Shown here: one piece after another, positions 1,308 through 61,277 of the stretch
Layout: every line of letters begins with the position of its first letter
How positions within the stretch are numbered: position 1 is the first letter of the stretch
Assembly: GCA_964023275.1 (NCBI GenBank)
Contig: OZ029920.1
Coordinates: 3,959,438-4,023,437 of the forward strand
From: Norana najaformis
Taxonomy: Eukaryota; Annelida; Clitellata; Crassiclitellata; Hormogastridae
Direction: 5' to 3'
DNA: 64,000 nucleotides
Notes under the pieces: generated by a model
The model's input: the letters and a program-made list of their open reading frames with translations, nothing else
The model's database searches: none
Told to the model about the DNA's origin: nothing
Position numbers and translations under genes: made by a program

Positions 1308-1386
1308 GCATCAAAGACCGGCCGTTGACGTCGCCCTTCTCCTTTGTCCAGGCTTGGGACTGGCACTACCCCACATTGCAGGAGTT
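1308..1386 (-). mobile_element. R113 copy, truncated at its tail side
   Basis: Reads gcatcaaagaccggccgttg then the CCTTCTCCTTTGTCCAGG block, ending caggagtt. The part from agtagttcc to cttatg is replaced by the TTA microsatellite. Confidence 0.7.
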
Positions 1387-1669
1387 ACTTAATCGTATTT
1401 TTTATTTCCAAAGTTTAACGACATCTTATGGCTAGAGTGGCCTTTGACGTCTTTAAAAATTCTAATTTAGGTAGAGTTTATTGTTCATAAGTTTCTGTTA
1501 TTGTTTTTAGTTCGTTTGTCTTGCTATTTTCAGTTCGTATTTCGCTGGTTGTCTTGGGGTTCTTGTGGCGTCTAGGTATTCTTTTGATGGCCATATCAGC
1601 TTTTTTCTGTTTTTCTTCAAATTGTTTTGTTTCTTTTTTTAATTATTTTTTTGGTGGCCGTAAAGGCTG

Positions 1670-1814
1670 TAAACTTAATCGTAGTTTTAGTAGTTCCTCA
1701 GTTTTAACGACAGCTTATGGCATCAAAGGCCGTTGTCGTCGCCCTCCTCCTTTATCCAGGCTTGGGACTGGCACTACCTCCGAACAAGGCAGTGGCGGAG
1801 TTTAAACTTAATCG
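1670..1814 (-). mobile_element. R113 copy with 12-bp flanking direct repeats
   Basis: Full-length copy (1689-1802) of the 113-bp family. The 12-mer TAAACTTAATCG occurs at 1670-1681 and again at 1803-1814, directly after the gagtt end. A short tagtttt tract lies between the left repeat and agtagttcc, consistent with a decayed tail. Sense strand here means the strand that reads AACTCCGCC to GAGGAACTACT. Confidence 0.75.
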
Positions 1815-1928
1815 CAATAACACTCATTCATTTATATAGCTTAATCGTAATAACAATCATTCATTTATACAGCCTTTCAAAATGCGGTTAAAAGGTGTAT
1901 AAACCTAATCAAATTGTAATTTGTAATC

Positions 1929-2038
1929 AGTAATTATTTGACAGTGGTCTCACTGGTTCGGGTCGGGAGTGCCTCTGATGAGTCTGTTCTTGAAGTGGCG
2001 TTTTATAAATGTCAGATTACAATTACAATTACAACATA
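1929..2038 (+). mobile_element. CR1-like LINE 3' tail, (ACAATT)n end
   Basis: Nearly identical to the complement of 63515-63620: ttatttgacagtggtctcac, then gagtgcctctgatgagt, cttgaagtggcg, and a tail of attacaattacaatt. Only the non-coding 3' end is present. Confidence 0.6.
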
Positions 2039-2039
2039 T

Positions 2040-3050
2040 TTGCCCTATTAGCCAACAATTGTTTTAGTGGAAGCATCACGTGTTAAAGGGCATCTTGTTT
2101 ATATAATTAGCTCTTCTGCGGTATCCCATGTGTGCTCATAAGACAGACCATACAATACAGAGAATAATTTCTATGATCCACAGTTTAACGACGCCATGTG
2201 GTTGCCAGGGCTAGAATTTTTGTCAGAATTTTGTATCTAAGTTACTCTTCCTCGGCACTCCCCGCTGTCCTTAGTAAGGTGATGCGAAGCCGAGGGATAG
2301 ATAAAGGAGGGCTTCGATAATTACCTTTGTTTTGACACTTCTTCGGTACACATAAACAAACTAACTACCGTTAAGTAGGGCAATCGGTGTTCCTGTATAG
2401 CACAAAAGGCGCTATATACTACTAGGTCAATGAAGACGCAATGCCGTTAAATGAAAACTACAAATCGCTAGTTTTTTCCACGCCTCTCCGGTATTGATGT
2501 AAGGTTTGGACACCTTTTAATCGCTTTCTCAGACGCCATATAAACATGACATTCCTGATATATGATGTTAGACAGTAGGCTTGATTAAACTACACATATC
2601 GTTTAGAAATCGAATACGAAAATTCAGTTAAGCAACCTTGGAAATACTTAAAGCATTATACGAAATTAATAGAAGTACTTAATGTTTATTAAACATATTT
2701 TATCCCCACTGAGGCTGTTAATGTCGACCTTAGCTTACATTTATAATTATCGTTATTGATGGGAAACAGTTGGTTAGGTTCTGCGTGTGTGCGGGGGCCT
2801 GGCAGATGGTGGCATTTCGTCTTTCGTCGGGTTGTGCCAGTCCTAAGCCAGGATAAAGGAGGAGGATGGCAACGGTTACCATTCTCGATTTTTGTCACAG
2901 CGTCGACGCTGACCGAAACTATTACAATGCCATGTAGTATTAGGAGAGAGTGGTGGAGTAGAAGCGATTAATAATGCCATCCGGGATTGTTGATAGAATA
3001 CCAACGATGTAGTTCCAGTGTTTAACGACATTTTATAGCACATTTTATAG
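2040..3050. other. Old module mosaic, no gene
   Basis: Contains a minus-arm motif near 2505 (ggacaccttttaatcgc), cores near 2195 and 3020, and two diverged R113 relatives (about 2245-2370 and 2830-2885). No coding segment is supported. Confidence 0.55.
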
Positions 3051-3056
3051 ATTAGC

Positions 3057-3166
3057 AGTAGTTCCTCAGTTTAACGACAGCTTATGGCATCAAAGGCCTT
3101 TGCCGTCGCCCTCCTCCTTTATCCAGGCTTGGGACTGGCACTACCCCAAACAAGGTAGTGGCGGAA
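3057..3166 (-). mobile_element. R113 copy, full length
   Basis: Starts agtagttcctcagtttaac and ends ggtagtggcgga. It is preceded by an old core (gtttaacgacattttatagc) at 3018. Confidence 0.8.
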
Positions 3167-3633
3167 ATCCTTATCATTAGAATTAATAAATACATATGAA
3201 AATTATACACCCATCTGTACATATGGATGCTGCCACTTATGTAAAGGAAAATGAGTCTAAATCCAGGTCCGACCTCTGTCTAGAAATTGTTGATACCACT
3301 GATAAATTCAAACATTGTCAACTTGTAATAGGATGGATTTCATGCCATATCGGGCTGTTTCGAAATGACTGCGGGTAATTTCGGTGTCAACGGGTTTTGA
3401 GAGCCAAATGATGTCATCAGACACTAGACACAGTACAGTCAGTGGGGATTCTTCTAGTCGGCTAATTTCAAACGAACCTCATGTTTTTAATGAATCTAAC
3501 ACCGTTTAGGGTCGCACAGTCTGCCCTTCTATGAAGTATAAAAGGCGCTATATTAAGTGTGTGAACAGATATTGAGAAGCCTTGAATGAAGAAAAAGCAT
3601 AATGGTGTTAAGACGACATTGTATAATGTAGGC

Positions 3634-3830
3634 TATGTATGTATGTATATATGTATGTAGGTAGGTATGCATGTATGTATGTATGTATATATGTATGTAG
3701 GTATGTATGCATGTATGTATGTATGTATGTATGTATGTAGGTATGTATGTATGTATGTATGTATGTATGTATGTAGGTATGTATGTATGTATGTATGTAT
3801 GTATGTATGTATGTGTGTGTGTGTGTGTAT
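3634..3830. repeat. (GTAT)n then (GT)n microsatellite
   Basis: About 195 bp of gtat/gtag tetranucleotides ending in tgtgtgtgtg. On the minus strand it gives spurious His/Thr/Tyr-rich open frames. Confidence 0.95.
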
Positions 3831-4115: not shown

Positions 4116-4172
4116 AGTGGCGATGGCGGTGGCGATGGCAGTGGCGATGGCGGTGGCGGTGGCGATGGGGTG
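4116..4172. repeat. (GGCGAT)n minisatellite
   Basis: Alternating ggcggt and ggcgat hexamers. It sits at the position of the GGT tract in the module E copy at 25.8 kb. Confidence 0.8.
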
Positions 4173-4289
4173 GTGAAGATGATGATGGTACGAGATGCTC
4201 TGTTTTAGTATAAAATGTTTTACTACTGTGAAATATAGGTACTTTTCATGTGTATGCCAAAGTCACAAAAATGGTTAAACAGTTGAAAA

Positions 4290-5015
4290 TATAAATATTT
4301 TAGGCAATCTTGAGACACCTTTAAATCGCTTTCACAATCTTTATATATTCCTCATTTTCACATATTTAATTTTCCGACATGGCTTGGTTTTTGCGTGAGG
4401 TATTGTCGACGTAAACGTTCCTGGCAACCATAAGAATTAATGTCGTTACGAAGTCGAACAAGAAGTCACAAGAAACTTGGAAGAATAATATTAGGCTACG
4501 CTGAAGCACTTTGTTATTGCTTTTCCAAAAGTGATTAATTGTAAATTTTCCTTAAATCCCTAATTATGTCGGTGGAAGTATAAATGCAAGCGAAGGTCGA
4601 CGTTAAGGGTCTATGCGGCCATACTGTAAATGGTATTTTAACATATGATTCTCCTAATAAAATCAATAACTGCTAAAATATTTTAAGTGTTACTCTACCG
4701 ATATTTCAAAACGTCGGCTTTTGTCCGCCTAAACGATAAGCGTATGCTAAACCAGCTTAGCTGAGGAATGGGAAGGTAAGTAAGATCAGCATCAATTGTC
4801 ATAGCAGTCACGATATGTCGCTAAACACTCGATATCAATACTCAGCCAGTTTAAGATGACTTTGTTTCAAGGGCTGAAATTTGGGGATAGTACAAATTGT
4901 AAAGTAAATGGAAAATAAGTATTGATTAAATTCAAAGGAATTTAAAGCCATAAGATATCGCTAAACACTAATTCTACTTTTAAAAATTAGTTAACGCTTA
5001 TACACCTTTATATCG
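4290..5015 (-). repeat. Module A, near-complete copy
   Basis: From gagacacctttaaatcgc to acacctttatatcgct. Between these lie, in order, gaagtcgaacaagaagtc, aaggtcgacgttaag, ctaaaccagcttag, a core near 4800-4830 and a gctgaaatttggggatag segment. The order mirrors 23770-24450 and 26036-26690. Confidence 0.75.
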
Positions 5016-5240
5016 CTGTTCCTCAGAGTGGCACAACCCAACAAAAGACAAGATATCACCATTGCCAGGTCTCCGCACACAGGGAGAGCCTAACCACCGG
5101 TTTCCCATTAATAATTAATATTAAGTGTTTAACTACAACTTATGGTTGCAAAGGCCGTCCACGTCGAACTCATCATTTGTCAGCGACAAAAATCAGATAA
5201 CAATTGTACGAAATTGAACTTTATATAACCAAGGAAGGAA

Positions 5241-5545: not shown

Positions 5546-6249
5546 GAGGTTGGCTGAAAAAATTTCTATACAATAAGCCGAGACGATAAGATGTATAAAC
5601 GCCTAAAACAAACTTCTTTTAAGTATTGCAATATATAATTTAGCAGGATTTTCCAGTTTATTGCATTTTTGAACCAGCACCCGCAGCCGACCAGCTTCGC
5701 TTACATTTAATCCGCTTTGTGTACACTCATCATAACGGATGAGCGAAAATGCAACATATATTTTGTTGAAAAGCAATTAAACGGTGTATAAGTTAAGATA
5801 TCGACGTCCAAGGCCCTCTAGCAAATTAGATGTCATTAAACAATGGATGACAGTACTAATCGCTAGTACTCCACCACATTTTCCTACTAATACAACATGG
5901 CGTTGTAGTAGCTTAGGTCTAGCGTCGACCCTGCGTCATAACGAAGATGATAAGCGTTGACATCTTCGTCCATTATCGAGGCTTCGTACTGTCACAAACC
6001 AAGAAAAGACAAAACATAGCCATTGCAGGCCCCCGCAAACACGTAGAACCGTACCAACGGTTTACCAATCAATAATATTGTTCAGTCTTTAACGACGTCT
6101 TATGGCTGCAAAGGTTAAGTTAGTGACTGAAAAAGTAGACAGCTTCTATACATCATTAAGCAACACACACGCACATGCGAATGGGAAGCGAAAGCACCCA
6201 TGCCCACACACATACATACATTCTGTAGGTCTAAACGAATACTGTAGAT

Positions 6250-6885: not shown

Positions 6886-6995
6886 AACTCCGCGCCTTTT
6901 TGAGGGTAGTGCCAGTCCTAAGCCTCGATTAAAAGGAGGGCGACGGCAACGGCCTTTGATGCCATAAGCTGTCGTTAAACTGAGGAACTACTACT
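6886..6995 (+). mobile_element. R113 copy, full length
   Basis: aactccgcgcctttttgagg to gaggaactactact; the tail shows two to three ACT units. It lies just downstream of a minus-oriented arm at about 6845. Confidence 0.8.
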
Positions 6996-7134: not shown

Positions 7135-7243
7135 TAGAAGATTCTGTCTAGCGATGCTGTGTCATAACCAAGATGATCTGCGTCCCTATCCTCCTTCTTT
7201 ATCCAGTCTTCGGACTGGTACCAGCCCAGTTGTGGAGTTTCGC
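7135..7243 (-). repeat. Old resident R113 relative
   Basis: tctgtctagcgatgctgtgt, then cctccttctttatccag and gttgtggagtttcgcg. It shares the second half of R113 but has a different core. It continues without a break into the arm of the 7281 dyad, so it is part of the background unit and not an insertion. Confidence 0.6.
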
Positions 7244-8264: not shown

Positions 8265-8391
8265 TCAACAAAGAAGATTCCGCCACTGCCTTGTTTGGGG
8301 GTAGTGCCAGTCCAAAGTCTGGATAAGGAGGAGCGCAACGGCCTTTGATGCCATAAGCTGTCGTTAAACTGAGGAACTACTCAACAGAGAA
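8265..8391 (+). mobile_element. R113 copy with 11-bp flanking repeats
   Basis: Element 8276-8380 lacks a few bases of the GGAGGAGGGCGACGG block. It is flanked by tcaacaaagaa (8265-8275) and tcaacagagaa (8381-8391), which differ at one base. Confidence 0.75.
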
Positions 8392-9350: not shown

Positions 9351-9400
9351 TTATTTCCTTTTGCTATATATTTATCACTTCGTTCAGTAGCTAATTATAA

Positions 9401-9513
9401 ACTACGTCACTGCCTTGTTTGAAGGTAGTGCCAGTCCCAAGCCTGGATAAAGGAGGAGGGCGACGGCAGCGGCCTTTGATACCATAATCTGTCGTTAAAC
9501 TGAGGAACTACTA
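9401..9513 (+). mobile_element. R113 copy, full length
   Basis: actacgtcactgccttgttt to gaggaactactagg. gtagcta occurs on both sides (about 9387 and 9514), a possible short target duplication. Confidence 0.75.
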
Positions 9514-11966: not shown

Positions 11967-12079
11967 AACTCCGCCACTGCCTTGTTTGGGGTAGTGTCAG
12001 TCCCAAGCCTGGATAAAGGAGGAGGGCGACGGCAACGGCCTTTGATGCCATAAGCTGTCGTTAAACTGAGGAACTACTA
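11967..12079 (+). mobile_element. R113 copy, full length
   Basis: aactccgccactgccttgtt to gaggaactactact. atcgta occurs on both sides (11960 and 12082). Confidence 0.85.
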
Positions 12080-12220: not shown

Positions 12221-12248
12221 TTTTTCATTTTTATATATATTTTATTTC

Positions 12249-12356
12249 AGCCACTGCCTTGTTTGAGGGTAGGGCCAGTTCCAAGCCTGGATAAAGGAAG
12301 AGGGCGACTTCAACGGCCTTTATGCCATATGATGTCGTTAAACTAAGGAAATACAA
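12249..12356 (+). mobile_element. R113 copy, diverged
   Basis: gccactgccttgtttgaggg to ctaaggaaatacaact, with gacttcaacgg in place of gacggcaacgg. Confidence 0.7.
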
Positions 12357-12514
12357 CTAATAGCTACAATTTGACAAGTATCGCTTTTGTGAGTTAAGAT
12401 GTCGACGTCAACGGCAGTGTCAGCCACACGCTGTCAGTAAACAATGGATACCAGTAATAATCGCTAATTCTCCCGCATATAGGCCTATTAATATTTCATG
12501 GTATTGTTGTAGTT

Positions 12515-12620
12515 ACTATTTAACGATGCTGTGTCATAACAAAGTTTAATAGCGCCCCCCTCCTTTATGCATGCTTCAGTCTGGCACCACACCAAATAAA
12601 GGCAGTGACGGAGTTTAAGC
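12515..12620 (-). repeat. Old resident R113 relative
   Basis: tttaacgatgctgtgtcata, then cccctcctttatgcatgc and ggcagtgacggagttt. Same arrangement as 16385-16490. Confidence 0.55.
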
Positions 12621-12639
12621 AACGTTTTGTGAATGAACA

Positions 12640-13020
12640 CAAGAACACAAGAAAACAGTTTTGCCCTGTCCAGCCCAAATCTACGCTGTGATAATCGTCG
12701 TCGTCCTCCTCATTAATAATAGTCCCACCTTCTCAAGAAATTTTACCACGAATTTTTCAATCCAGCACCTTCTCATTTTCTCAAGTAGAACATACACCCA
12801 CTTTAGCCGTTCCTCTGTTTCCTCTCATCTCTGGTATTCTAACATCCTGACGTTGTTCTAAACATTGCACTTCTGGACAACTCATCTGGTTTGACGCAGC
12901 GCTAGTTAATAGGCTGGCGCCCTGAGCTTAGCATTTAAGTAGTGCCTGAGAAATTTCTCAATTTTTCCAATTATTATTACTACTGATAATATCAGGTTAC
13001 GATTAGACACCTTTAAATCG
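12640..13020 (+). repeat. Module B start joined to module G
   Basis: The front (gaacacaagaacacaagaaa, cagcccaaatctacgctgtg) is module B-like. From about 12735 it matches module G: ccactttagccgttcctctg, catcctgacgttgttc, cctgagcttagcatttaag, closing on a minus arm attagacacctttaaatcgc. Confidence 0.6.
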
Positions 13021-16227: not shown

Positions 16228-16519
16228 TTCTTTGCATTGCTTCATATTCGTTCAAAGGAATAATTTTACCAATGCATGCGAGTTAATAACGTCAACGTAA
16301 ACGGCACTGTCATTAAACAGTGGATAATATAATTGCTAATATTTCTCCGTGAAATAGGCCTATTATCATTTCATGGTGTTGTTGCAGTTTCTATTAAACG
16401 ATGTTCTGTCATAACAAAGTTTAATAGCTTCCCTCCTTCTTTATCCATGTTTCAAACTGTCACCACACCAAATAAAGGCAGTGGGGGATTTTCAGCAACG
16501 TTTTGTATGACGTGAGTTA

Positions 16520-16855
16520 ATACAAAAACACCAGGAACCAATTTCGCGCTGACCAGCCCAAATATACTCTTAGATCACCTCGTCGACATCAACATTATTT
16601 TTAAAAATTCCACTAATTTTCCATGGCTATTAAAAACATATAGCGTTCCACAGATGATTGTATACAGACCTGAACTAGATATTTACAGACGAACTATAAT
16701 ATTTCCATAGGCCACAATTAAAATAATATGTCAGCCAGCATCTGTTCCCTTTCCTGAAGAAGTTTAAACGCTGAGTTGATTTTAAAACAGCTTTCCTTCC
16801 AACTTAACAAATAAATAATCGTCATAACAAATTGCGCCAATACACTCAGTAAAAA
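16520..16855 (+). repeat. Module B copy
   Basis: accaatttcgcgctgaccag, cgttccacagatgattg, ctgaagaagtttaaacgctg, taataatcgtcataac; parallels 8392-8830 and 35340-35770. Confidence 0.55.
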
Positions 16856-16856: not shown

Positions 16857-17010
16857 AGTAGTAGTTCCTCAGTTTAACGACAGCTTAAGGCATCAAAGGC
16901 CGTTGCCGTCGCCCTCCTCTTTTAACTAGGCTTGGGACTGGCACTACCCCCAAACAAGGCAGTGGTTGAGTTACTGGCTATCGAATAGTAAGTAAGTAGT
17001 TCCTCAGTTT
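16857..17010 (-). mobile_element. R113 copy plus second tail fragment
   Basis: Full copy at 16857-16972 (agtagtagttcctcag to ggcagtggttgagtt). A second start, gtaagtagttcctcagttta, follows at 16988-17010 and stops abruptly at a GC-rich segment, suggesting that a second R113 was cut by that insertion. Confidence 0.75.
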
Positions 17011-19908: not shown

Positions 19909-20114
19909 AACTCTGCCTCTGCCGTATTCGGGCAATGCCAGCCGCAAGCCTGGATAAAGGAAGAGGGCGACGTCAACGGCCTTTGATATCACAAGATGTC
20001 GTTAAACATTGAAAACTACTGTTAACTCGGTCACTGCCGTACTCGGGTAATGCCAGTCCCAAGCCTAGACAAAAGACGATGGCGATGAGATGTTGTTAAA
20101 CATTGGAACTACTT
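19909..20114 (+). mobile_element. Two R113-like copies in tandem
   Basis: First copy 19909-20021 (aactctgcctctgccgtatt to gaaaactactg) and second 20024-20114 (aactcggtcactgccgtact to ggaactact). Both have cgtcaacgg or shortened cores and a GTATTCGGGTAATGCC variant shared by the pair, so they probably arose by duplication. Confidence 0.65.
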
Positions 20115-20988: not shown

Positions 20989-21105
20989 AAGTCCGCCACT
21001 GCCTTGTTTGGAGGTAGTGCCTGTCCCAAGCATGGATGAAGGAGGAGGGCGAAGGCAACGGCCTTTGATGCCATAAGCTGTCGTTAAACTGAGGAACTAC
21101 TACTA
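20989..21105 (+). mobile_element. R113 copy, full length
   Basis: agtccgccactgccttgttt to gaggaactactactac, tail of three ACT units. Confidence 0.8.
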
Positions 21106-21107
21106 CA

Positions 21108-21242
21108 ACACCATTTAACTCCGCCACTGCCTTGTTTGTGGGTAGTGCCAGTCCCACTCCTGGATAAACAAGGAGCGCGACGGCAACGACCTTTGACGCC
21201 ATAAAATGTCGTTAAACTGAGGAACTGCTGCCTACACCATTT
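21108..21242 (+). mobile_element. R113 copy with perfect 9-bp flanking repeats
   Basis: Element 21117-21231, flanked by ACACCATTT at 21108-21116 and 21234-21242. It inserted just behind the preceding copy, whose tail lies inside the left flank. Confidence 0.8.
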
Positions 21243-23459: not shown

Positions 23460-23700
23460 CTTCTGCTGCTGATGATGATGCTGCTGATGATGATGATGAG
23501 AAGGAGGAGGAGGAAGAGGAAGAAGAAGATGATGATGATAATGATGATGATGATGTCGACGACGTAATATTATGATGAGTGTAATCATAATGGAGGTAGT
23601 GTTGGACGAGATGATGGGGCTGATAATGAAGGTTGTGCTTCTGGTGATAAAGACGCCGGCCACGAGATCCTGTAAGAAATGCTTTATTAATTTCATGTAA
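23460..23700 (+). repeat. Module E with GAT/GAG tract
   Basis: A gctgatgatgatg and gaggaggaagagg tract (23460-23552), then gatgagtgtaatcataatgg, ggttgtgcttctggtgataa and gtaagaaatgctttatt. It is the reverse complement of 28110-28260. Confidence 0.6.
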
Positions 23701-23769
23701 GGTAGAGCTTACATGACTAAGTCGCAAAATGTTGTTAAACATATGAAATTTTCAGTTCTGTTAGGTTCC

Positions 23770-24450
23770 GTTTAGACACCTTTATATCGCTTTCACTCAC
23801 TTCATATAAACCTCAGTTTCGTAAATTGAGTTGTTCGGCTTGACGACGATCGGATACGAAGTAGGGTCGACGTGAACGCAATAAGAATTCGTTTCCTTAC
23901 GAAGTTGAAGAAACTTGGCAAAACAATGTAAGGCTACGCGTGGACACTTTGATATTGCTTTTCCAAACGTGTTATATTGTTAATATTCGTTACATCGCTA
24001 ACTGTTTCGACGGTAACTTTTAATATAAACGAAGGTTGATGTTTACGGACCCCGTGGCTATAAAATTTCGTAATACAAAAAAGATCCTTTTATTAATATC
24101 GATTTCTTCTTACGATGTTTTCCAGGTCACTTAAGTTAACAGAGATTTTATTTTCGGCTTTTGTAGGTCCAAACGACCTATGTAGGTGAGACCAGCTTAG
24201 CTTTTGTATGGGAAATTGGGCAAGATCAAAGTCAATGGTCCTGGAAGTCGCAAGATGTCGTTAAACACTCGATATTATTATTCAACCAGTTTTAGAAGGC
24301 TTCTTCTAGGATCTTAAAAATGGGTATAGTGCAGATGGCTAAGAAAGTTTGAATTAAGAAAAGGTCGACGTCCACGGCTCTGGCAGCCATGAGATGTCGT
24401 TAAAAATACTAATGCTAAACATTTATATAAGGTCACGCCTAGACACCTTT
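23770..24450 (-). repeat. Module A, complete copy
   Basis: The clearest minus-strand copy: tttagacacctttatatcgc, aagaattcgtttccttacga, gcgtggacactttgatattg, a tagtccaaacg-like segment (gtaggtccaaacgacctatg), gtgagaccagcttag, core caagatgtcgttaaacactc, aaaaggtcgacgtccacgg, closing tagacacctttatatcgtt. It contains arm, half-arm and three cores. Confidence 0.75.
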
Positions 24451-24864
24451 ATATCGTTGTTTCTCTAAATAAGATTTTCGTTTCGTTGTATATGTATGAG
24501 ATATCTTTAAACCCTCAGTCTCTGTTGATCTTCGCCGTTATTTATCTCCAACTGTAATTCAGCACATAATGCTGAAAATAACTAATAGTAATAGTAATAA
24601 AAATAATAATAGTTATTAAGTATCACAACAGCAAAATTATTTTAAAAAAATAACAAAGCGAATAAGAATAATAGTAGGCCTACTTCTAACTTATTAACTC
24701 TAACAGCGCCGTTAGGGAACTAGTAAGCAAAAGCATGTTCCTTTCGGAAAGCCAGAATAATATCTAATAGTCACAATAATAGCTAAAAGCGGCGTACGAA
24801 TTATTATTATTATTATTATTAACACATTTAATTAAATAATTAATTACCTAATTAATTAATTAGC

Positions 24865-25356: not shown

Positions 25357-25496
25357 ATTCACAGGTAAAACTCCGCCACTGCCTTATTTGGGGGCAGTGC
25401 CAGTCCCAAGCCTGGATAAAGGAGGAGGGCGACGGCAACGGTCTTTGACGCCATAATCTGTCGTTAAAGTGAGGAACTACTACCATTCATAGGTAA
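25357..25496 (+). mobile_element. R113 copy with 12-bp flanking repeats
   Basis: Element 25369-25484, with attcacaggtaa at 25357-25368 and attcataggtaa at 25485-25496 (one mismatch). The element body is close to consensus. Confidence 0.8.
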
Positions 25497-25649: not shown

Positions 25650-25985
25650 GATTATGAATATGAATATGTAACGTTATGAGACGAATTTAAATGAAAATAT
25701 TTTATCTAACAACATCATTCTGATCATAATTATGATGATAACAGTGACGACGATAGTTATTCTGGTGTTGTTGGTTTTAGTCGTGGATATGATGACGATG
25801 GTGGTGGCGGTGATGCCAGTGATTGTGGTGGTGGTGATGGTGGTTGTGGTGGTGGTGACGACAACGACGACGGCGGTGGTGGCGGTGGCGGTGGAGGTGG
25901 TGGTGGTGGTGCTTACGCCAACGACTAGATGCTCTGTTACTGTAAGAAAATGCTTTACTAATGTGAAATGTAGGTACTTGGTAAT
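25650..25985 (+). repeat. Module E with GGT tract
   Basis: gatcataattatgatgataa, cagtgacgacgatagttatt, a GGT/GGC tract at about 25799-25915, ctagatgctctgttactgta and actaatgtgaaatgtaggta. Its microsatellite sits at the same site as in the other E copies. Confidence 0.65.
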
Positions 25986-26035
25986 CAAAAGATGTTGTTT
26001 AACACTTGAAATTTTTAATATCGTTATTCAAAGTT

Positions 26036-26690
26036 TAGACACCTTTAAATCCCGTTCAGTAACTTTATATATTCCTCATTTACGTTATTCAATTAATTGT
26101 TCTTTTGTCCTTTTATTAACGGCCAAGGAAGAATTCGTTTCGTCACGAAGTCAAAATACAAGTCGTAAGAAACTTATAGTAGATGACGCTTTGAATTCCT
26201 TCTCCAAACTTTTTATATTATCAGTTTCCGTTAAATCGCTAATTTATCGGCGATTATTATAAGTGAAAGCGAAGGGAGACGTTAATGGCTCCAGTGGCCA
26301 AAATGTCGTTAATCGTAGGACATTTCTAGTTATTATAGATTGTTGCCTAAAATATTTCTTGGGCTATTTAACCTAAAATTTTATTTTTGGCTTTTATATG
26401 TATAAACGATATCTGTATATTGACCCAGCTTAGTTTACGCACGGGAAAATGTGGTAAGATCACGATCAAAGATCCTAGCAGTCGCAAGATGTCACTGAAC
26501 ACTCGATGTTAAAATGCAACCAGTTTTAGATGATTTCGTTTAACCGCTAAAATTTGGCAATGGTGCAAATGCCTCAGAAAATGCAAATTAGATAAGTGTC
26601 GACTTTAACGTCTTTAGGAACCATAAGATATCGTTTAGCACTTATTTCTCATAACAAAATATTAGTTTGAGCTCAGACACCTTTATATAT
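26036..26690 (-). repeat. Module A, complete copy
   Basis: tttagacacctttaaatccc, gaagaattcgtttcgtcacg, gaaagcgaagggagacgtta, ttttatttttggcttttata, cccagcttagtttacgc, core gcaagatgtcactgaac, closing cagacacctttatatatcg. It directly follows module E. Confidence 0.7.
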
Positions 26691-26764
26691 CGTTATTCCT
26701 AGTTAATAATTTGGTGATCCTTATCTCCGGATAAGCTCTAGCAGCCAGTGTCTTTAAACGTGTA

Positions 26765-27055: not shown

Positions 27056-27336
27056 TTGAGGACGCTATATATATATATATATTCCTTATTTTTTCCTTAC
27101 GTTATTTGCTGCCTGTTGTCTAGTGCAACGTTGATAATTATTAGTATTACGTGTTGCTCAAGTAGCATTGCATCCTGAGTTACAGTTAACGAGAAATAAG
27201 GGCAAAATAAAACGGTTGGACTCTAATACTGTACTGAGAGTTTAAAAACATCTCATGATATGGCTTACACAGCCGTTGACGTCAAGCTCTATATGAACAA
27301 ATCATCAAAGAACGAACATCTTATGTAGCATGGAGA

Positions 27337-28045
27337 GATAACGATATAAAGGTGTCTAAGTGTAGCCCCATACAACTTTTTAGCATTAGTATCTTTTTTA
27401 ACGACATCTCATGGCTGCCAGAGCTGCGCATGTCGACCTTTTCTTAATTTAAACTTTCTTAGCCATCTGCACTATTCCCATATTTAAGAACCTAGACAAA
27501 GCCATCAAAAACTGGTTGAATATTAATATCGAGTGTTTAAAGACACCTTGTGACTGCCAGGACCATTGACACTGATCTTGCCTACTTTCCCGTATACATA
27601 AGCTACATCTAAGCTGGTCTCACCTACACACATGTCGTTTGGACCTACAAAAGCCGAAAATAAAATCTCGGTTAATTGACCCGGAAAATATTTTAAGAGA
27701 AGCAATCGATATGAATAAAGGAATCTTTTGTATGACGACATTTTATGAGTTATCTTTACAACCTTCGTTTACATTAAAAGATACCATCGAAACCATTAGG
27801 GACGTAACGAAAATTTACAATATAACACGTTTGAAAAAGCATTATCAAAGGGCCCACGCGTAGCCATATATTATTCTCCCAAGTTTCTTGCGACTTCTTG
27901 TTCGACTTCGTAACGAAACGAATTCTTATTTCCATTCAGGTCTACCATTCCTCAGTTAAGATCGTTATAAGAGTTAAATACTCAATTTTCGAAAATGAGA
28001 TTTATATGAAATGAGTGAAAGCGTTTTAAAGGTGTCTAAACGATG
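27337..28045 (+). repeat. Module A, complete plus-strand copy
   Basis: acgatataaaggtgtctaag, ctcatggctgccagagc, aaactggttgaatattaata, gtgactgccaggaccattg, gtttggacctacaaaagccg, tgacccggaaaatattttaa, tcttgcgacttcttgttcga, closing gcgttttaaaggtgtctaaa. It is the best reference for the plus orientation. Confidence 0.75.
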
Positions 28046-28084
28046 CCTAACAGAAATGAAAATTTCAACTGTTGAACAACATTT

Positions 28085-28250
28085 TGTGACTTCGACATGT
28101 AGGCTCTACCTTACATGAAAATAGTAAAGCATTTCTTACAGTAACTTAGCACCTCGTGGCCGGCGTCATCATCACCAGAAGCACAACAACCTTCATTATC
28201 AAATAGCAAACCCATCATCACATCCAACACCACCTCCATCATGATTACAC
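28085..28250 (-). repeat. Module E fragment
   Basis: agtaaagcatttcttacagt, cgtggccggcgtcatcatca, acctccatcatgattacact. It is the complement of 23565-23700 and abuts the CAT/TTC-rich 3' tail of the RTE element. Confidence 0.6.
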
Positions 28251-28300
28251 TCATCATCATCATCTTCTTCTTTTTCATCATCATCTTCTTCTTCTTCTTT

Positions 28301-28338
<38 letters not shown>

Positions 28339-28349
28339 ACATCACCTTG

Positions 28350-31201
28350 TCACCTTGTGCTGTCAGCTCTTTGAGCTCTAGCGACCGCCATGATCAATCT
28401 TCTCCATTTCTTTCTTTCCAATGTCGCGTCCCTTAGTTGTGCCAAGTTCATTCCAGTTGCTTCGTGTATCTTGTCCATCCATTTTTTCCTTGGTCTCCCT
28501 TGTTTTCTCTTTCCCTCTCCACAAGCCAGCATCATTTCTTTTTCCAATCCATCTGATCTCATAACATGTCCAAAGAACCTCAGCTTTGATTTTAGCACTG
28601 TTTGTTGTAACGTCTCATCTTGCTCAATTCCAATCGCCTTGCGTACCCATTCATTAGTCCTTTTCTCCGTCCATGATATTCTCAGCATCTTCCTCCATAT
28701 CCACATTTCACAAGCATTGATTTTTTTCTCTATTTTCTTGGTCATTGTCCACGTCTCACTGCCATATGTTACTGTTGGTATAATCAAGGCCCTCACCAAT
28801 CTTTTTTTTTGTGTCTGTGCTCACATGTTTGTCTTTCCATATTTTTTCTAGTCCATTCATTGCGGCTTTTCCAATCGCCACCCTTCGGTTTATTTCCATA
28901 TCGCACTTTCCTTCTCTTTCTACTACTGATCCCAAGAATGTAAAGCTTGTTACCATCTCTAATTCCTCTCCATCCACCATAAAACTGCCCTCCTCAGCTG
29001 TTGTCATGATCTTCGTTTTCTTTATATTGAAGTATAGTCCTGCTTTCTCGCTCTCTCTCTTCAGCCTTCTTATCAGTTCTACCAGATCTGTTTTTACCTG
29101 CTAATAGTGTTGTGTCATCTGCGTATCTCAGATTATTCAATGTTCTTCCCGCTATCTTTACTCCCTCTTTTGCTCCATCCATTTCCGCCATCCTCATTAT
29201 CCTTTCTGCATATAGGTTAAATAGGAATGGGGACAGAATGCATCCCTGCCTCACTCCTTTCTTTATTTTGATTCTTTCAGTATCTCCAAATTCAGTTCTT
29301 ATTACCGCAGTCTGTTCTTCGTACAATCCCTTAAGAAGTTGTATCAAGTGCCTTGGTATTCCCATTTCTATTAAGGTTTTCCACATCAACTCATGATCAA
29401 TGCAATCGAATGCCTTACTATAGTCAATGAAGCATATGTATAATTTTTGTCCATACTCCTTTTGTCTCTCCATTATCCACCGCATGTTGGCGATATGATC
29501 ACGAGTTCCGCGGGATTTCCTAAATCCTGCTTGGTTATCTGGAAGCTCCCTCTCTATTATGTTCTCCATTCTTTTATGTATTATTTTAAGTAGTATTTTA
29601 CTTATGTGCGAAATCATTGCTATGGTCCTGTAGTTTTCACACTCTCTCGCATCTCCTTTTTTGAATATAGGGATAAAGATTGAGCTCTTCCAATCCTCTG
29701 GCCATTTTCCGGTTATCCATATGATATTGCACATTTCTGTTATTGTCTTTGTCATTGCGCCATCTCCTGCTTTTACCATTTCTATGGGTATCCCATCCGG
29801 ACCCGGCGCTTTATTGTCCTTCAGTTGTCTAATTGCCCATTCCACCTCTGCTTCCAAAACGTCCGGTTCCTTTTCGTGTTCTGATGTATCGATTCGTTCT
29901 TTCATTACTCTCCTATCTTCACTGTACAGCTCCTCTGTGTATTCTTTCCATCTGTTCTTCATTTCCTCTTCGTCTGCGATTATGTGTCCATCCCTTGACC
30001 TCAGTGATCCCATTCTTGGTGTGAATTTTCTCGTTATTTCCCTCACTTTTGAAAACATTTCTTTAGTTCTTCCTTTCTTTCCCTCTTCCTCCATTTCCTT
30101 GCACATTGCATTTAGATGTTTTTCTTTGTCTATACGTGCTTGCTTTTGGAATGCTCTATTCATTTCTCGTAACTTGTTTTTGTCTCCTTCTTTTTTTGCC
30201 TCCTTTCTTTCTACAGCTATGTTGATAGCATCTTTCGATAGCCACGGGGTTGTTGTGACTTTCTTTTTCTTCGGAATGTGTTTCTCAGCAGTTTCTAGTA
30301 TTATTCCCTTCACCTTCTCCCACAGATTGTTCGTGTCTTCATCTATCACCGTCTCGTCCCTCTCTAATATTTCAAACCTATTCCTTATTTCCGTTCTGTA
30401 TTCCGGTGTGATTCCTTTACAGTCATACCTGTTCAGTCTTTCACCTTTTTTCAATTTCTTCAGTTTCATTTGCACTGTTGCCACTAATAATTCATGATCA
30501 GTTCCGCAGTCCGCGCCTGGTCTCGTTCTTACATCCCTTATCGTACTTTTCCATCTTTTGTTTATCGGTATGTAATCTATCTGATTCCGATATTTCCCAT
30601 CTGGTGACGTCCAAGTGTACAGTCGTCTTTTTGGCTGTTCGAACCATGTATTCATTATTCCCAAGCTGTTTCCATCGCAAAACTCTACTAATCTTTCTCC
30701 TGCCTCATTTTGTTCTCCTAGTCCATGTCCTCCAATCGTGTCCCTTGCTCCTCCGTCACACTTTCCCACCTTCGCATTGAAGTCACCAATAACCATTATT
30801 ATATCTCCCTTAGGGATTCTGTCTATTTTACTTTGCAGTTCATTGTAGAACTTTTCATGCTCTTCTTCTTTTGCTATCGATGTTGGTGCATACATCTGTA
30901 CAATTGTTATATTAACTTTCTTTCCACGAAATCTTACGCTCAGTATTCTGTCACTCACCGTGTCATATCCCATTATTGCATTTGCACTTGTCTGGTCACA
31001 CATGATTGCCACCCCATTTCGTCCTTTTTCCTCCTGCCCTGACATTATTATCTTATAACCATTCCAATTGAAATGTCCTTGTCCTTTCCACCTTGTCTCG
31101 CTTAATCCCATGACTGATATTTCAAGTCGCTTCATCTCTCTCTGTATGATGTCCATCTTTCCGCTCTGCATACTGCGCACATTCCACATACCTATCTTCA
31201 T
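28350..31201 (-). pseudogene. RTE ORF2: endonuclease-reverse transcriptase, two frameshifts
   Basis: Would nick target DNA and copy its own RNA into the nick (target-primed reverse transcription). Start at 31201 (MKIGMWNVRS). Endonuclease motifs: LSETRW (33-38), MYAPT (103-107), GDFN (139-142), NQIDYI (206-211), TDHELL (234-239). Reverse transcriptase motifs: KAPGPDGIP (464-472), PIFKKGD (511-517), QAGFRKSRGT (557-566), FIDYSKAFD (591-599), GVRQGCILSP (649-658), YADD (693-696). After YADD the frame shifts in a five-A run (about 29088-29092). It continues at 29007-28810 (FTFLGSVVE), shifts again in a nine-A run (28802-28810) and resumes at 28799-28350 (YGSETWTM, LRFFGHVMR, GRPRKKW). Each break is explained by one extra A, so it is either a young pseudogene or has assembly indels. 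Confidence 0.88.
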
Positions 31202-31208
31202 CTTCTGC

Positions 31209-31520: not shown

Positions 31521-31684
31521 GTGAAGGTGGGCACGGAGGACTTTGATTCATCAGCCCAGGTCGGTTCCGAGTCTACGTTCAAAAGATACGTCGGTCGGGT
31601 CTCCTCCCTGTTTTACTATAGGCAAGCTATAGTGGCTGACGAACCTTATCAGACCTTAGACTGTTAGTACCCTTTTCATTATGA
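31487..31684. repeat. 27-bp perfect inverted repeat at RTE 5' end
   Basis: Arms 31487-31513 (tcataatgaaaagggtacta and on) and 31658-31684 are exact reverse complements, with a 144-bp loop. The outer arm coincides with the inferred 5' end of the element. Confidence 0.9.
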
Positions 31685-32100: not shown

Positions 32101-32213
32101 AGTAGTTCCTCAGTTTAACGGCAGCTTATGTCAGCAAAGGACGTTGCCGTCGCCCTCCTCCTTTATCCAGGCTTGGGACTGGCAATATCCTGAACAAGGC
32201 AGTGGCGGAGTTT
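32101..32213 (-). mobile_element. R113 copy, full length
   Basis: agtagttcctcagtttaacg to ggcagtggcggagtt, with small changes (cggcagcttatgtcagc, ggcaatatcctg). Confidence 0.8.
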
Positions 32214-32743: not shown

Positions 32744-32975
32744 CGGCGATATAAAGGTGTCTAATCGTAACCCGATAATTTACTATAAATATAATATTTA
32801 ACTCTGTTAGTTCACTTTTTATTCGCTTTTTGATGGTGTATACTCCTAATTTTTGTTAACTCTCTCACAAATGCCCAATTGCTTTCAGTTGGGTGGTGCT
32901 GGTCTGAAGCCCGGATAAAAGACGAGGGCGTCCCGAATCACATTTGTTATGACACTACGTCGGTAAACACGAACT
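32744..32975. repeat. Arm dyad followed by old R113 relative
   Basis: gcgatataaaggtgtctaat faces ttcactttttattcgct (32744-32827) with the spacer in the orientation seen at 5241. From 32875, gcccaattgctttcagttgg, gctggtctgaagcccggata and tgttatgacactacgtcgg form an old relative of R113 in plus sense. Confidence 0.6.
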
Positions 32976-34269: not shown

Positions 34270-34385
34270 AACTCCGCCACTGCTTTTTTCGGGGGTAGTG
34301 CCAATCCCAAGCCTGGATAAAGGAGGAGGGCGACGGAAAAGGCCTTTGATGCCATAAGCTGTCGTTAAACAGTGGTAATACTACT
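34270..34385 (+). mobile_element. R113 copy, full length
   Basis: aactccgccactgctttttt to gtggtaatactactattt. The end follows the module style (acagtggtaatactact) and not the usual actgaggaactact. Confidence 0.75.
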
Positions 34386-34795: not shown

Positions 34796-34937
34796 TCACA
34801 ACTTGGAACTCCGTGACTGCCTTGTTTGGAGATAGTGCCAGTCACAAGCCCGGATAAAGGAGGAGGGCGACAGCAATGGCCTTTGATGCCATAAGCTGTC
34901 GTTAAACTGAGGAACTACCACTACTATTCACAACTTG
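34796..34937 (+). mobile_element. R113 copy with perfect 10-bp TSD
   Basis: Element 34806-34927 (aactccgtgactgccttgtt to aactaccactactat), flanked by TCACAACTTG at 34796-34805 and 34928-34937. It inserted just downstream of a module G/arm sequence. This is the cleanest evidence that the family transposes through staggered nicks. Confidence 0.85.
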
Positions 34938-35048
34938 AGCTCCTTCGCTGCCTTCCTTTAGTCGGGTAGTGCTAGTCCCAAGCTTGGATAAAGAGTGACG
35001 TCAACGACCTTTGATGCCATAAGATGTCGTTACACATTGGAACTACTT
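34938..35048 (+). mobile_element. R113-like copy, older
   Basis: cgctgccttcctttagtcgg, agtcccaagcttggataaag, agtgacgtcaacgacctttg, then gttacacattggaactactt. It belongs to the TTAGTCGGGTAGTG subtype also seen at 31741. Confidence 0.65.
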
Positions 35049-35224
35049 CAATCCCCAGTACCATTGTACGGTAAGTTAAAATGTTGACGATGACATCCCC
35101 GTCAGCCACACGATCTCAATTGACAGATCTCATTCTTACTTTTTTTGGTAGAGTGGATGCTATTATTAGATTCTAGATCCCCTCCATGTAGGCTTATTAA
35201 TGCTACATGGTTCTGACGTAGTTT

Positions 35225-35770
35225 CTCTCTAGCGACGCATGGCCATAACGAAGATATTTAGCGTCGCCATCCTTCTCTTTAATCCAGGCTTTAGACTGGC
35301 ATCACCAGAAGAAAGGCATTGATGTAGTTTCAGCAGCTGGTTGCTTGAATGGATTTAATAAAAGAACAGAAGAAAACATATTTCCCTCTCCAGCCAAGAT
35401 CTACGCCTTGTGATAATCATCGTTGTCGTCATCATTATTAATCTTTAAAGATTTCCACAACTAAAAACCGTTAGCGTTCAGGAGATCATTTTATACAAAC
35501 CTTTTCCAGGTGTTTAAGGACGTACTATAATATTTTCCTACACCACAATTACTAGAACTTCGTCAAGCACAAACTGTTTGCCTTCCTGAAGAAAATCAAA
35601 CGCAGAGTCGATTTTCGGGCATTTTATAAAAACATTTTTGCAAGTTGGCAAGTAAATGCGCGTTATAACAACATCCACCATTACGTTGAAAAGAGGCCGA
35701 AGCTCCAGTTGTTAAATGACATTTAGCGCTTAGAGACATCTTGTGGCTGCCAGCGCAGTTTACTTCGACC
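35225..35770 (+). repeat. Old R113 relative followed by module B
   Basis: 35225-35335 (minus sense): cgacgcatggccataacgaa, gcgtcgccatccttctcttt, ggcattgatgtagtttc. 35340-35770: ccctctccagccaagatcta, gttcaggagatcattttata, agaacttcgtcaagcac, gagacatcttgtggctgcca. This is the most complete module B without a large microsatellite. Confidence 0.6.
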
Positions 35771-39009: not shown

Positions 39010-39240
39010 AAGCCTGGATAAAGGAGGCGACGGTAACGGCCTTTGATGCCATAAGCTGTCGTTAAACTGAGGAACTACTAGTATAGAAAACTCCGCCACT
39101 GTCTTGTTATGGGGGTAGTGCCAGTCCCAAGCCTGTATAAAAGAGGAGGGCGACGGCAACGGCCTTTGATGCCATAAGCTGCCGTTAAACTCATGAACCG
39201 CTACTACTAGTATAGAAACTCCGCCACTGCTTTGTTCCAC
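39010..39240 (+). mobile_element. Three R113 copies sharing one flanking sequence
   Basis: A copy missing its first third (39010-39080), a full copy (39089-39207) and a 24-bp start fragment (39217-39240). The 11-mer ctagtatagaa separates first from second and second from third, and ctaatatagaa precedes the first. This is either repeated insertion at the same target or local tandem duplication. Confidence 0.8.
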
Positions 39241-45134: not shown

Positions 45135-45419
45135 GCTTCTTTCACGAATTATGGTGGTGAGAGTCCAAAGCCTGGATGAAGAAAGTGGGCGACGTTAATC
45201 GTTTTCGTTATGACACGGCGTCGTTAAACGGAGATTACACGCAATTACACGCCTCTCTGCAAAGCTAACGCGGTTGTAGTTTAGCGGTATGTTTCCATCA
45301 AGACACTTCTGTGTCAACTTTAGGTATGAATTTCTATGGCTGCCAAAGCTCCTCAGGTTGACCGTAACACGATACCATGTAACAATTACGTTTTAATGCG
45401 TCGGGAATTCACGTTCGAA

Positions 45420-54114: not shown

Positions 54115-54530
54115 AAACAACTATATAAAGGTGTCTAAGCGCAGCATAATAGGCCTATATTTCTTACTATTAATGTTTAACGACATCTATTGACTATTCA
54201 GATCACTGACGTTGATCTTCCCTACCTTCCTATACATAACTTGATTCAATCTATCGATGCTTTCAGAACTACTGGAGCCAAAAATGCAACTCTCGGTTAA
54301 GTACCACAGGAAATAGTTAAAAAAACAATCGATATCATTAGAAGTATCTTATGGCTAATCGCATTTTATGGCTGTTGGGACCGTAAACTTCGACTTCCAC
54401 TTACGTTTATAATTACCGCCGATACTGGCGGTGGTTTAACGAGACGCTTAAAATCGAACCTATCGACGGAACGAAAATAAGGACTATATTGTTTCAAGAA
54501 GCCAAGATAGAAAGGTGTCTAAGCGTACTC
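54115..54530 (+). repeat. Module A copy
   Basis: ctatataaaggtgtctaagc, gtttaacgacatctattgac, tctcggttaagtaccacagg, aacaatcgatatcattagaa, gcattttatggctgttggga, closing gatagaaaggtgtctaagcg. The first third is absent. Confidence 0.65.
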
Positions 54531-54667
54531 GAACTATTTCATGAGTATTAAGTGTTTAAAGGCTACATTGTAGCCGTTTATGTCGACCTCTCTTTAAATA
54601 ACATTTCACAACAATTAGCAGAAGGTCTATTCCTAAATGTCAACGCTGAAATAAAGTCATCTAAAAC

Positions 54668-54980
<313 letters not shown>

Positions 54981-58881: not shown

Positions 58882-58912
58882 ACTACCACAGCTACTGCTA
58901 CTGCTACTACTA

Positions 58913-58995
<83 letters not shown>

Positions 58996-59030
58996 GCTAC
59001 TACTACTACTACTACCACTAAAACTACTAC
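58882..59030. repeat. (ACT)n microsatellite
   Basis: About 150 bp of ACT with GCT and CCT variants. The unit is the same as the R113 tail, but no R113 body is attached. Confidence 0.95.
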
Positions 59031-59565
59031 TGCTGCTTTTACTAATACAATGTTATTGCCAGGTGCTAAAAAGACATGGAGCTATTCCGTTTCTGGAGAC
59101 TAATTTTCCTCACATGGCTCAGGTATACCATCTTCTTGAAGCGCCGACTTACTTACTCTCAATTCCGGTTTCAAGCTTTGCCTCTTTTCATCTGTTTGCT
59201 TCAGTTCATCGCAGAAATCAATGCCATTAACGAAGGTAAACGAGACGAAGGTAAAAAATTCAGAAATTTAAGGTAAGGTTGACGATAACTGCTCTGACAG
59301 CCACAAAATGTTGTTGATATTAGGCTGTTTTTAGACACCTTTAAAGCGATTATTTCGAAGTTATTTAGTCTTCCGATTTTCTGAAAACCAGTGTTCTGGT
59401 ACCAAAAGAGTTTACGTCGACGTATAAAGGCCTTGGCAGTGGCAAGACGTCATTGAAAATTAAATTGTACTATAAATTTAACTCCGTTTAGACACCTTTA
59501 TATCATTATTTTCGATGGTATAAAGTTGTCGTTTACAGGTTGTCCCCGTTTGTATTTAATCGTGA

Positions 59566-59670
59566 ACGCTGCAACTGCTGTACTTGGGTAGTGCCGTCCT
59601 AAGCCTGGAAAGAGTAGCGCCTTTGATGTCTTAAGATTTTGTTAAACATTGAAACTACTACTAATCGTAA
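59566..59670 (+). mobile_element. R113-like copy, diverged
   Basis: cgctgcaactgctgtacttg, tgccgtcctaagcctggaaa, gcctttgatgtcttaag, then attgaaactactactaatcg. A second, weaker relative follows at 59765-59860. Confidence 0.55.
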
Positions 59671-59879
59671 TCACCGTCAAGTCAGCGAAAACTGTACAAT
59701 TGTTTTCAATAGAAGTGAAGGCCTTTGATGCCATAAGATGGGAAACTGTGGGAAACTTTAACCGCTGTTCAGCAATCGCCGAACTCGGACGGTGCCAGTT
59801 CCAAGACAGGAAAATAGCGGTGGTCGACGCTAATTATCGTTGTTATGACGCAGTGTCGTCAAACAGCAACTAATGCTAT

Positions 59880-60055
59880 TTATTGCTGGCGCTCAGTCAA
59901 AACGAAATGGATAGGCGGGAAGGATCCGGTTCCAGGTCAAGATCCAGAAGTCAGACAAGCAGTCATACGTCTACGGTGGATATTGTCTGGAATTGTATCT
60001 GCAGGAGAGAGAAAAGGGGGAGAAGACGATATCTCCGTTAAACAGGAGCGCCTAC
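59880..60055 (+). repeat. Module C copy
   Basis: gcgctcagtcaaaacgaaat, gataggcgggaaggatccgg, caggtcaagatccagaagtc, tctacggtggatattg. Confidence 0.6.
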
Positions 60056-60362
60056 ACTGAATACAGACAAAATGTTGGCCAAGTTATCTAAGTAATTATG
60101 ATGGTGTATTTCGGTGATGCGCTGAGTCTGTAATCCAACGGTTGCAGTTTCGTCTCTGCTGTGAGTACTCTGTGTAAAGACTTTGAAAAGCATGTTTACT
60201 CGCATTTGTATTCAGCTCACAGGCAAGTTTGCTGACCTTGAGCAGGTATTAAGCGCAATTCATAAATGATGAGCCAAATTAATTGCTTACATAACTGTAT
60301 GCCACATTAGTTGAATAGCTCGGAATAGAACTTCCCTTGTGGCACTAACAGTAAGCAGACTT

Positions 60363-60432
60363 TCTGTCTGTCTGTCTGTGTGTCTGTCTGTCTGGTTGTC
60401 TGTGTGTCTGTGTGTCTGTCTGTCTGTCTGTA
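60363..60432. repeat. (TCTG)n microsatellite
   Basis: ctgtctgtctgtgtgtc units; a smaller relative of the tract at 22.8-23.0 kb. Confidence 0.92.
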
Positions 60433-60642
60433 GGCCAATTCGAAGTCTAGAAGTGTGTGATTGCTGTTTGCAACTTATTTGCAATGTCTAAGCGCTTTTA
60501 GGTGTTTAACTATTATTATTATTATTATTATTTATTATTGGTTATTGATATGTTAACTGGATGTAAAATGAAATTGTTGAACTCGAGTGTTTAACGACAT
60601 CTTGTGGCTGCCACAGCGTTGCTCAGCTTTATCCATTCTAGT

Positions 60643-60755
60643 AGTAGTTCCTCAGTTTAACGACACCTTATGGCAACAAAGGCCGTTGCCGTCGCCCTCC
60701 TCCTTTATCCAGGCTTTGGACTGGCACTACCCCCAAACAAGGCAGTGGCAAAGTT
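60643..60755 (-). mobile_element. R113 copy, full length
   Basis: agtagttcctcagtttaacg to ggcagtggcaaagtt; preceded by an old core gtgtttaacgacatcttgtg at 60590, so young and old forms of the core sit 60 bp apart. Confidence 0.85.
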
Positions 60756-61164
60756 TAAACTTTGAGTACCACACAAAGTGAGATTTATATAATATAAAAA
60801 AACGATTTAAAGGTGTCTAAGAAGAGCATAGTGTCATTTTCAAGAGCTCAATGACAGCTTGTAGTTGCCCGAGCTGGCGACGTCGACCTCTCTACACAAA
60901 GCCAAACAATAACCTGCGATTGGTAGGTAGTCTGTGCTTAAGGATGTTGAGTAATAGAGAAGATTATTATCGTCGGTGTTAACTACGGCCAGACGAATGA
61001 ACGGAAACGACGAACAAATAACACCGAAGAAGGCATTCAATTATTATCAGTAATTTAGTAGTATTTACTTTTGACAAGAACGTCAACTGCATCGACTCAT
61101 CATATCACATAGTTTTGCAAAAGAGCATAGTTAGTCATCGTTTAAACGGAAACGACGTATATAT

Positions 61165-61277
61165 AGTAGTTCCTCAGTTTAACGACAGCTTATGGCATCA
61201 AAGGCCGTTGCCGTCGCCCTCCTCCTTTATCCAGGCTTGGGACTGGCACTACCCCCAAACAAGGCAGTGGCGGAGTT
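61165..61277 (-). mobile_element. R113 copy, consensus-like (113 bp)
   Basis: The copy closest to what I take as consensus: agtagttcctcagtttaacg, gcatcaaaggccgttgccgt, ccaggcttgggactggcact, ggcagtggcggagtt. It splits a tatata stretch just upstream of an arm (aaacgctatttaatggtgtc). Confidence 0.88.

Follow-up and report, generated by a model that had tools for sequence, protein, structure and literature searches.

R113, a short dispersed retroposon of Norana najaformis whose 5' end coincides with a predicted twister ribozyme cut site

Copies of R113 and their ends

The 64-kb stretch analyzed here (the window) covers C8:3959438-4023437 of the 608-Mb Norana najaformis genome, which comprises 17 contigs, and is populated by copies of a 113-nt repeat, R113. 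The reference copy lies at 61165-61277 on the minus strand (nt 1 = 61277, nt 113 = 61165). A BLASTN search of the window with this copy as query (E ≤ 1e-3) returned 61 high-scoring segment pairs (HSPs), which merge into 59 copies, 36 in plus sense and 23 in minus sense; the reversed window gave 0 matches in the same search. A first-pass annotation of this DNA had described about 37 copies in both orientations, with sharp ends at both sides. That observation holds for the orientations and the ends and underestimates the number; it also missed the sense strand, the ribozyme and the stem-loop described below. On its sense strand R113 begins AACTCCGCC and ends GAGGAACTACT followed by (ACT)n, and the two ends, as read from the sequence, have no inverted-repeat relation. 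Both ends are present in 21 of the 59 copies, two of which (18264 and 41082) carry internal deletions. Exact-pattern scans of two sequence collections, viral_contigs and genome_contigs, produced 0 matches.

Full copies occur on the plus strand at 6886-6992, 9400-9512, 11967-12078 and 34270-34382, and on the minus strand at 16860-16972, 32101-32212 and 60643-60755. The first three bases deviate in the full copy at 3057-3168 (minus strand), and the first bases also deviate in a more diverged full copy at 12244-12354 (plus strand). Copies with target duplications or tandem neighbors are described with those features.

A twister match at the head and a stem-loop behind it

R113 nt 1-61 (61217-61277, minus strand) match the type-P1 twister ribozyme family RF03160. 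Helices P2, P3 and P4 and the conserved loops lie within this core, and stem P1 lies outside it. The match on the reference copy (67.8 bits, E 3e-13) spans 61213-61282 and exceeds the curated gathering cut-off of 67.2 bits. An Rfam scan of the window, with matches listed at E ≤ 0.5, yielded 24 RF03160 matches: this one, 20 with E ≤ 0.0013 and three weak ones with E of 0.045-0.25; the full copy at 11967-12078 scores 61.4 bits. Genome-wide scoring covered 62 of 42,432 first-look candidates (the latter figure is not a copy count); all 62 match RF03160, 30 of them above the cut-off. None of 14 control genomes matched the family (0/14). An exact 75-mer, R113 nt 1-75, occurs 236 times in the genome, and its reversed control 0 times. 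When the copies are aligned, 89.3% of the cells in the twister helices are paired, against at most 47.7% when the helices are slid.

The 5' end of R113, A+1, coincides with the predicted cut site, placed by the RF03160 alignment and the literature at the phosphate between U(61278) and A(61277) on the minus strand. According to excerpts of the published work, which is cited in this form throughout, twister cleavage takes place between a U and an A (PMC6154101), on the 5' side of the general acid A1 (PMC9901934). Among 27 heads in the window 23 begin AA, and no conserved sequence lies upstream; with the four heads whose first bases deviate set aside, the base at -1 is A in 14, T in six, G in two and C in one. 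The 30 genomic loci above the cut-off contain 42 full R113 copies, 41 of them with enough flank; the first base is A in 40/41 and the first two are AA in 39/41. T precedes A+1 in 35 genomic copies, a count to be read with the caveat that the Rfam score used to rank these loci favors U at this position. Among the 236 exact copies the -1 base is not fixed (T in 86, A in 95, C or G in 55), and because it varies in this way it is taken to be part of the target. The base 5' of the twister cut has been termed nonconserved, with 2-aminopurine tolerated there, and twisters without P1 are reported to cleave at near wild-type rate (PMC5408937; for P1 also PMC6154101). Since P1 is described as dispensable and the -1 base as nonconserved (PMC5408937), an R113 copy that starts at A+1 could still cut itself in a new site.

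An internal RNA polymerase III promoter was not recognized. Against the A and B box consensuses, the best A box on the sense strand has 6/9 matching positions (shuffle p 0.97) and the best B box 7/10 (p 0.32); boxes were likewise not found on the other strand. This agrees with the first-pass annotation, which had seen neither box and so no ordinary tRNA, 5S or 7SL short interspersed nuclear element (SINE); a SINE in the strict sense has such a promoter. The window's Rfam matches at E ≤ 0.5 include no tRNA, 5S or 7SL RNA and no hammerhead ribozyme, and a tRNA-, 5S- or 7SL-derived SINE identity was rejected on these results.

Behind the twister core, nt 62-95 (61183-61216, minus strand) form a stem-loop, CGACGGC ... 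GCTGTCG, with an inner GGC/GCC stem; the whole element folds modestly better than shuffled sequences (z -1.41). The remainder of the 3' half runs TTAAAC...GGAACT(ACT)n, with the terminal segment TTAAACTGAGGAACTACT at 61165-61182 (minus strand) and extra ACT units in many copies. A 20-mer from this 3' module has 92 occurrences in the window at ≥16/20 identity and 0 in the reversed and shuffled window, and by this search the module is common to many repeats besides R113. In a second family a head of the same twister kind is joined to a different stem-loop of equal length. It is represented by 12512-12615 (minus strand), and whole or partial members lie at 16387-16491, 35221-35329, 7140-7227 and 5914-6000 on the minus strand and at 32891-32974 and 45153-45235 on the plus strand.

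The two kinds of module were compared for conserved pairing. Across all 70 modules, unselected, 71.6% of the cells are paired, against 27.6-51.5% when the stem is slid, and two-sided changes affect 109 cells, where shuffles give 57.8; 0/500 shuffles reach either value. The first kind alone has 76.8% paired (reached by 8/500 shuffles), and 42 aligned first-kind modules have 82.3%. A hand-picked alignment, A3, combines 23 of the 42 first-kind with 20 of the 28 second-kind modules, the latter chosen partly after pair counts were known; its figures (81.2% paired, score 0.450 versus 0.236) are stronger than those of the unselected 70. The stem-loop is thus kept between the two kinds of module. Compensatory changes fall mainly between the kinds and may represent few events.

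The window also contains old repeats of approximately 1 kb, at 23470-24482 (+), 27311-28344 (-), 25789-26709 (+), 4123-5024 (+) and 54174-54937 (-), which open with a (TGA/TGG)n run and have the 3' stem-loop motif within them. The last of these is immediately preceded by a twister head and some 104 TGA units. Such repeats, sharing the 3' module, may be parents of the short families or later composites.

Target duplications and genomic distribution

Five flanking direct repeats had been named in the first-pass annotation, and all were found. The full copy at 1689-1802 (minus strand) is flanked by a 12-bp duplication, CGATTAAGTTTA (= TAAACTTAATCG). Two others belong to plus-strand tandem pairs: ACACCATTT flanks the second copy of the pair at 20989-21229, which has a period of 128 bp, and TCACAACTTG flanks the copy at 34807-34918 in the pair at 34807-35047, whose other member (34940-35047) is more diverged. 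The remaining two each have one mismatch: TCAACAAAGAA/TCAACAGAGAA (8265/8381) around the full copy at 8276-8381, in which the first three bases deviate, and ATTCACAGGTAA/ATTCATAGGTAA (25357/25485) around the full copy at 25369-25481, both on the plus strand.

Relative to a null in which left and right flanks are paired at random, seven of 19 full copies in the window have a duplication score of at least 8, against 0.5 expected (permutation p 5e-5 on the summed score). One of the seven is false, in that the repeat at copy 19909 matches part of an adjoining element (two diverged copies, 19909-20020 and 20024-20085, adjoin at 19909-20085 on the plus strand), and another, at 39089, recurs in a local array. 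Of the genomic copies, 15/41 score at least 9, against 0.12 expected, and the summed score was reached by 0/20,000 permutations, with the caveats that the duplication at L023 lies in a microsatellite and that at L028 takes in tail letters. Among 17 genomic copies scoring at least 8, 14 have duplications of 10-15 bp, and 16 have duplications ending within 2 nt of A+1. A 200-kb sample of chromosome interior, drawn at round positions, contains five R113 HSPs, including two full copies (84% and 75% identity), each with a direct repeat of 9-11 bp ending 2-4 nt before A+1, a number (n = 2) too small for a null test. R113 thus has the traits of LINE-type insertion (LINE, long interspersed nuclear element), namely target duplications and a short 3' repeat tail. 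The first-pass annotation had argued for retroposition from these traits and had proposed a genome-wide comparison with random expectation; the window and genomic results uphold it, and its reading of R113 as a retroposon is right. A mainly tandem arrangement, which it had named as the sign of a satellite, is not the main mode, as 23/181 exact copies lie in runs. Its interpretation was incomplete in that the fixed 5' end lacked a ribozyme account.

Exact R113 copies and the best twister matches cluster near contig ends. On contigs of known size, which hold 50 of the 62 best twister matches, 39/50 are no more than 5 Mb from a contig end (12.8 expected), as are 67 of the 98 exact copies listed on C1-C9 (22.0 expected), with the exceptions of C2 (0/4) and C9 (0/7); tandem copies are not independent in these counts. 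Reverse-transcriptase domains, of which 150 were scored and 125 lie on contigs of known size, do not cluster in this way (30 within 5 Mb, 32 expected). The 200-kb interior sample contains four stem-loop 20-mers, compared with 92 in the 64-kb window.

A probable twister-headed retroposon and its alternatives

It is probable, at roughly three chances in four, that R113 is a promoterless, non-autonomous retroposon built from a 5' twister without P1 and a 3' stem-loop with an (ACT)n tail; this reading is drawn from sequence comparison. A host RNA reading through an R113 copy would be cut by the twister immediately 5' of A+1, irrespective of the host base at -1, and the freed RNA would have an exact 5' end and bear a LINE-type stem-loop and ACU tail. 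The reverse transcriptase of a LINE would then recognize the 3' half and, through target-primed reverse transcription, copy the RNA at a nick in the target DNA; insertion would leave the target duplications, mostly of 9-16 bp. The model presumes cleavage in cells, read-through transcription and capture by a LINE. Such a cut would account for the spread of R113 without a promoter of its own. The first-pass suggestion that R113 was copied from polymerase II transcripts is possible, and lacked the ribozyme that would account for the fixed 5' end. A broader reading, given about even odds, is that at least two short retroposon families of this genome carry a natural P1-less twister as a portable device for making 5' ends, with young copies piling up in distal chromosome regions. 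As such a twister needs neither promoter nor fixed upstream base, every new insertion would at once be self-excisable from host RNA.

Several observations weigh against the twister-headed model. The Rfam cut-off is passed by just one window copy, the other 23 matches lying below it; stem P1 is missing, and its 5' strand falls outside R113, in variable flank. Compensatory change in the twister helices is nearly nil (five cells, not above shuffles), so covariation is uninformative, and conserved twister positions are less variable overall (p 0.018) but not without the P3 loop (p 0.23). The counts of copy starts arise partly by construction, the copies having been chosen by alignments reaching nt 1-4. 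Three old head-bearing repeats (12431-12715, 16307-16597 and 35185-35442) resemble one another also in about 100 bp of sequence preceding A+1, as would be expected of copies of a larger composite. In the 3' module, the second kind alone has 64.3% of cells paired, not above shuffles (120/500), and pairs changed on both sides number nine against 9.1 in shuffles, no more than in shuffled or slid controls; given the figures within each kind, the evidence for the stem-loop lies in the difference between the two kinds. RNAalifold predicts 0 pairs in alignment A1 and the inner three in A3. Finally, the R113 tail was not found on the few LINE ends examined, those of RTE elements in the window included, and some R113 copies are in tandem.

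The tandem copies bear directly on a first alternative, in which, as in retrozymes, tandem multimers are cut by the twister and the units ligated to circles and reverse-transcribed. Runs were defined as copies on the same strand at most 200 bp apart and counted on exact copies whose -1 base is T or A (n = 181), the 55 with C or G falling outside the count. Among the 23 copies in runs are exact series at C12:26.419 Mb, with a period of 124 bp, and at C13:4.406 Mb, with a period of 125 bp, and more pairs recur at 99-131 bp; among 77 full copies from the window and the genomic loci there are five same-strand neighbors 15-23 bp apart. In metazoans, hammerhead retrozymes occur as tandem repeats and are expressed in circular form (PMC7229834, in excerpt). 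Because of these tandem copies a circular-RNA route is a live rival, though tandem repetition is not the main pattern: 158/181 exact copies lie outside runs. Most copies with clear duplications run from A+1 to a short ACT tail beside the duplication, which fits a linear RNA. The 15-23 bp spacing is about the size of a tail plus a duplication, and the spacer in the 20989/21117 and 39010/39089 pairs consists of tail and target sequence; the latter pair belongs to the tandem copies at 39010-39198 (plus strand), where ACTAGTATAGAA is repeated at junctions. Propagation through circles is accordingly judged improbable, at odds somewhat better than one in ten.

Exact R113 copies also recur every 724-726 bp at C12:27.277-27.280 Mb and at irregular short distances at C17:17.646-17.649 Mb, which suggests longer arrays that include R113.

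A second alternative is that the twister head is an inherited relic without present role, the 5' end being set by a transcription start or a reverse-transcriptase stop. The missing P1, the lack of U at -1 in most copies, and tests of compensatory change and conserved positions that do not show selection on the twister core would all fit a relic. The R113 end nevertheless falls at the predicted cut site, the next base upstream is not fixed in 236 exact copies, and P1 and the -1 base are the very features reported as dispensable and nonconserved (PMC5408937), so that a relic head is considered quite unlikely. An ordinary SINE with an unrecognized internal promoter has a precedent in the trypanosomatid Pr77, where excerpts describe promoter and ribozyme as overlapping; given that R113 has neither box and no tRNA, 5S or 7SL match at E ≤ 0.5 in Rfam, it is very improbable here. 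Satellite and DNA-transposon readings, for which some tandem arrays would speak in the satellite case, were rejected with near certainty on the variable-length target duplications, the dispersal on both strands, the few tandem runs and, for a transposon, ends that are not inverted repeats of each other.

Ribozyme-headed non-autonomous retrotransposons are already known, and R113 would be a variant with a twister as its ribozyme. The closest parallels, as far as the excerpts of the cited papers extend, are the R2 SIDE and R2/R1 hybrid SIDE of Drosophila, which need no more than a 5' ribozyme and a 3' end (PMC3414825). Like the proposed R113 element, the R2 SIDE joins a 5' self-cleaving ribozyme to a LINE 3' end, is freed from a cotranscript and is mobilized by a LINE; in contrast to the dispersed, twister-bearing R113, it carries the R2 ribozyme, which resembles that of hepatitis delta virus (HDV), and sits in rRNA genes. 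RTE retrotransposons with a truncated, reportedly competent 5' twister (PMC7761336, "in preparation") are similar in placing this ribozyme on an element without long terminal repeats (non-LTR), whereas R113, at 113 nt, has no room for a reverse-transcriptase reading frame. Metazoan non-LTR retrozymes share with R113 a short, non-autonomous, ribozyme-bearing form and some tandem copies; they differ in their type I hammerhead, 150-450 bp tandem repeats and circular RNA (PMC7229834), R113 being found mainly as single copies with a LINE-like tail. In the trypanosomatid L1Tc/ingi clade, LINE and SINE-like elements share the ribozyme-bearing 5' stretch Pr77, which, unlike R113, contains an HDV-like ribozyme and also activates transcription (PMC4035085, PMC8190864). 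The literature searched, largely without subscription papers and bioRxiv preprints, yielded one sentence on RTE twisters and no short retroposon headed by a twister. What natural twisters do biologically was described in a 2016 review as largely speculative (PMC5408937). A predicted cut site that forms the end of a mobile element, in 236 exact copies in one genome, offers a concrete, testable role for the twister, and the R113 model offers a promoter-free route by which short retroposons could spread.

The structured 3' module fits the first-pass proposal of a minimal LINE-tail parasite, although no LINE with that tail is among the few examined: the RTE ends pass into (TGA)n or (ATG)n or lack a repeat. 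In the reverse-transcriptase family L056/L057 no ribozyme was matched at E ≤ 1. In one RTE family, two copies contain a weak twister-like stretch in the 5' untranslated region (24.9 and 27.4 bits, below the cut-off), with 17 letters identical to R113 from nt 31 (15 where the piece ends). This region is a possible source of the R113 head, in line with the remark on RTE elements excerpted from PMC7761336. The 5' regions of three RTE copies with long open frames elsewhere in the genome (L051, L052 and L054) begin at a weak HDV-like fold, with scores of 27.3, 20.6 and 24.3 bits (E 0.01, 0.57 and 0.21), all below the cut-off of 44. Matching flanks of 9-10 bp were seen by eye at two RTE copies (TACATAAAGT, L051/L053; ATGAAGCGA, L054/L055). 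RTE LINEs of the same genome may work in a like manner with another ribozyme, judging from these folds and flanks.

The window itself contains an RTE-type LINE at 28251-31556 (minus strand; RVT_1, E 4.9e-29) with a (TGA)n tail. A weak HDV-like match lies at its 5' end (31465-31556; drz-agam-1, 16.2 bits, cut-off 37, E 2), and a protein search with this RTE returned close relatives.

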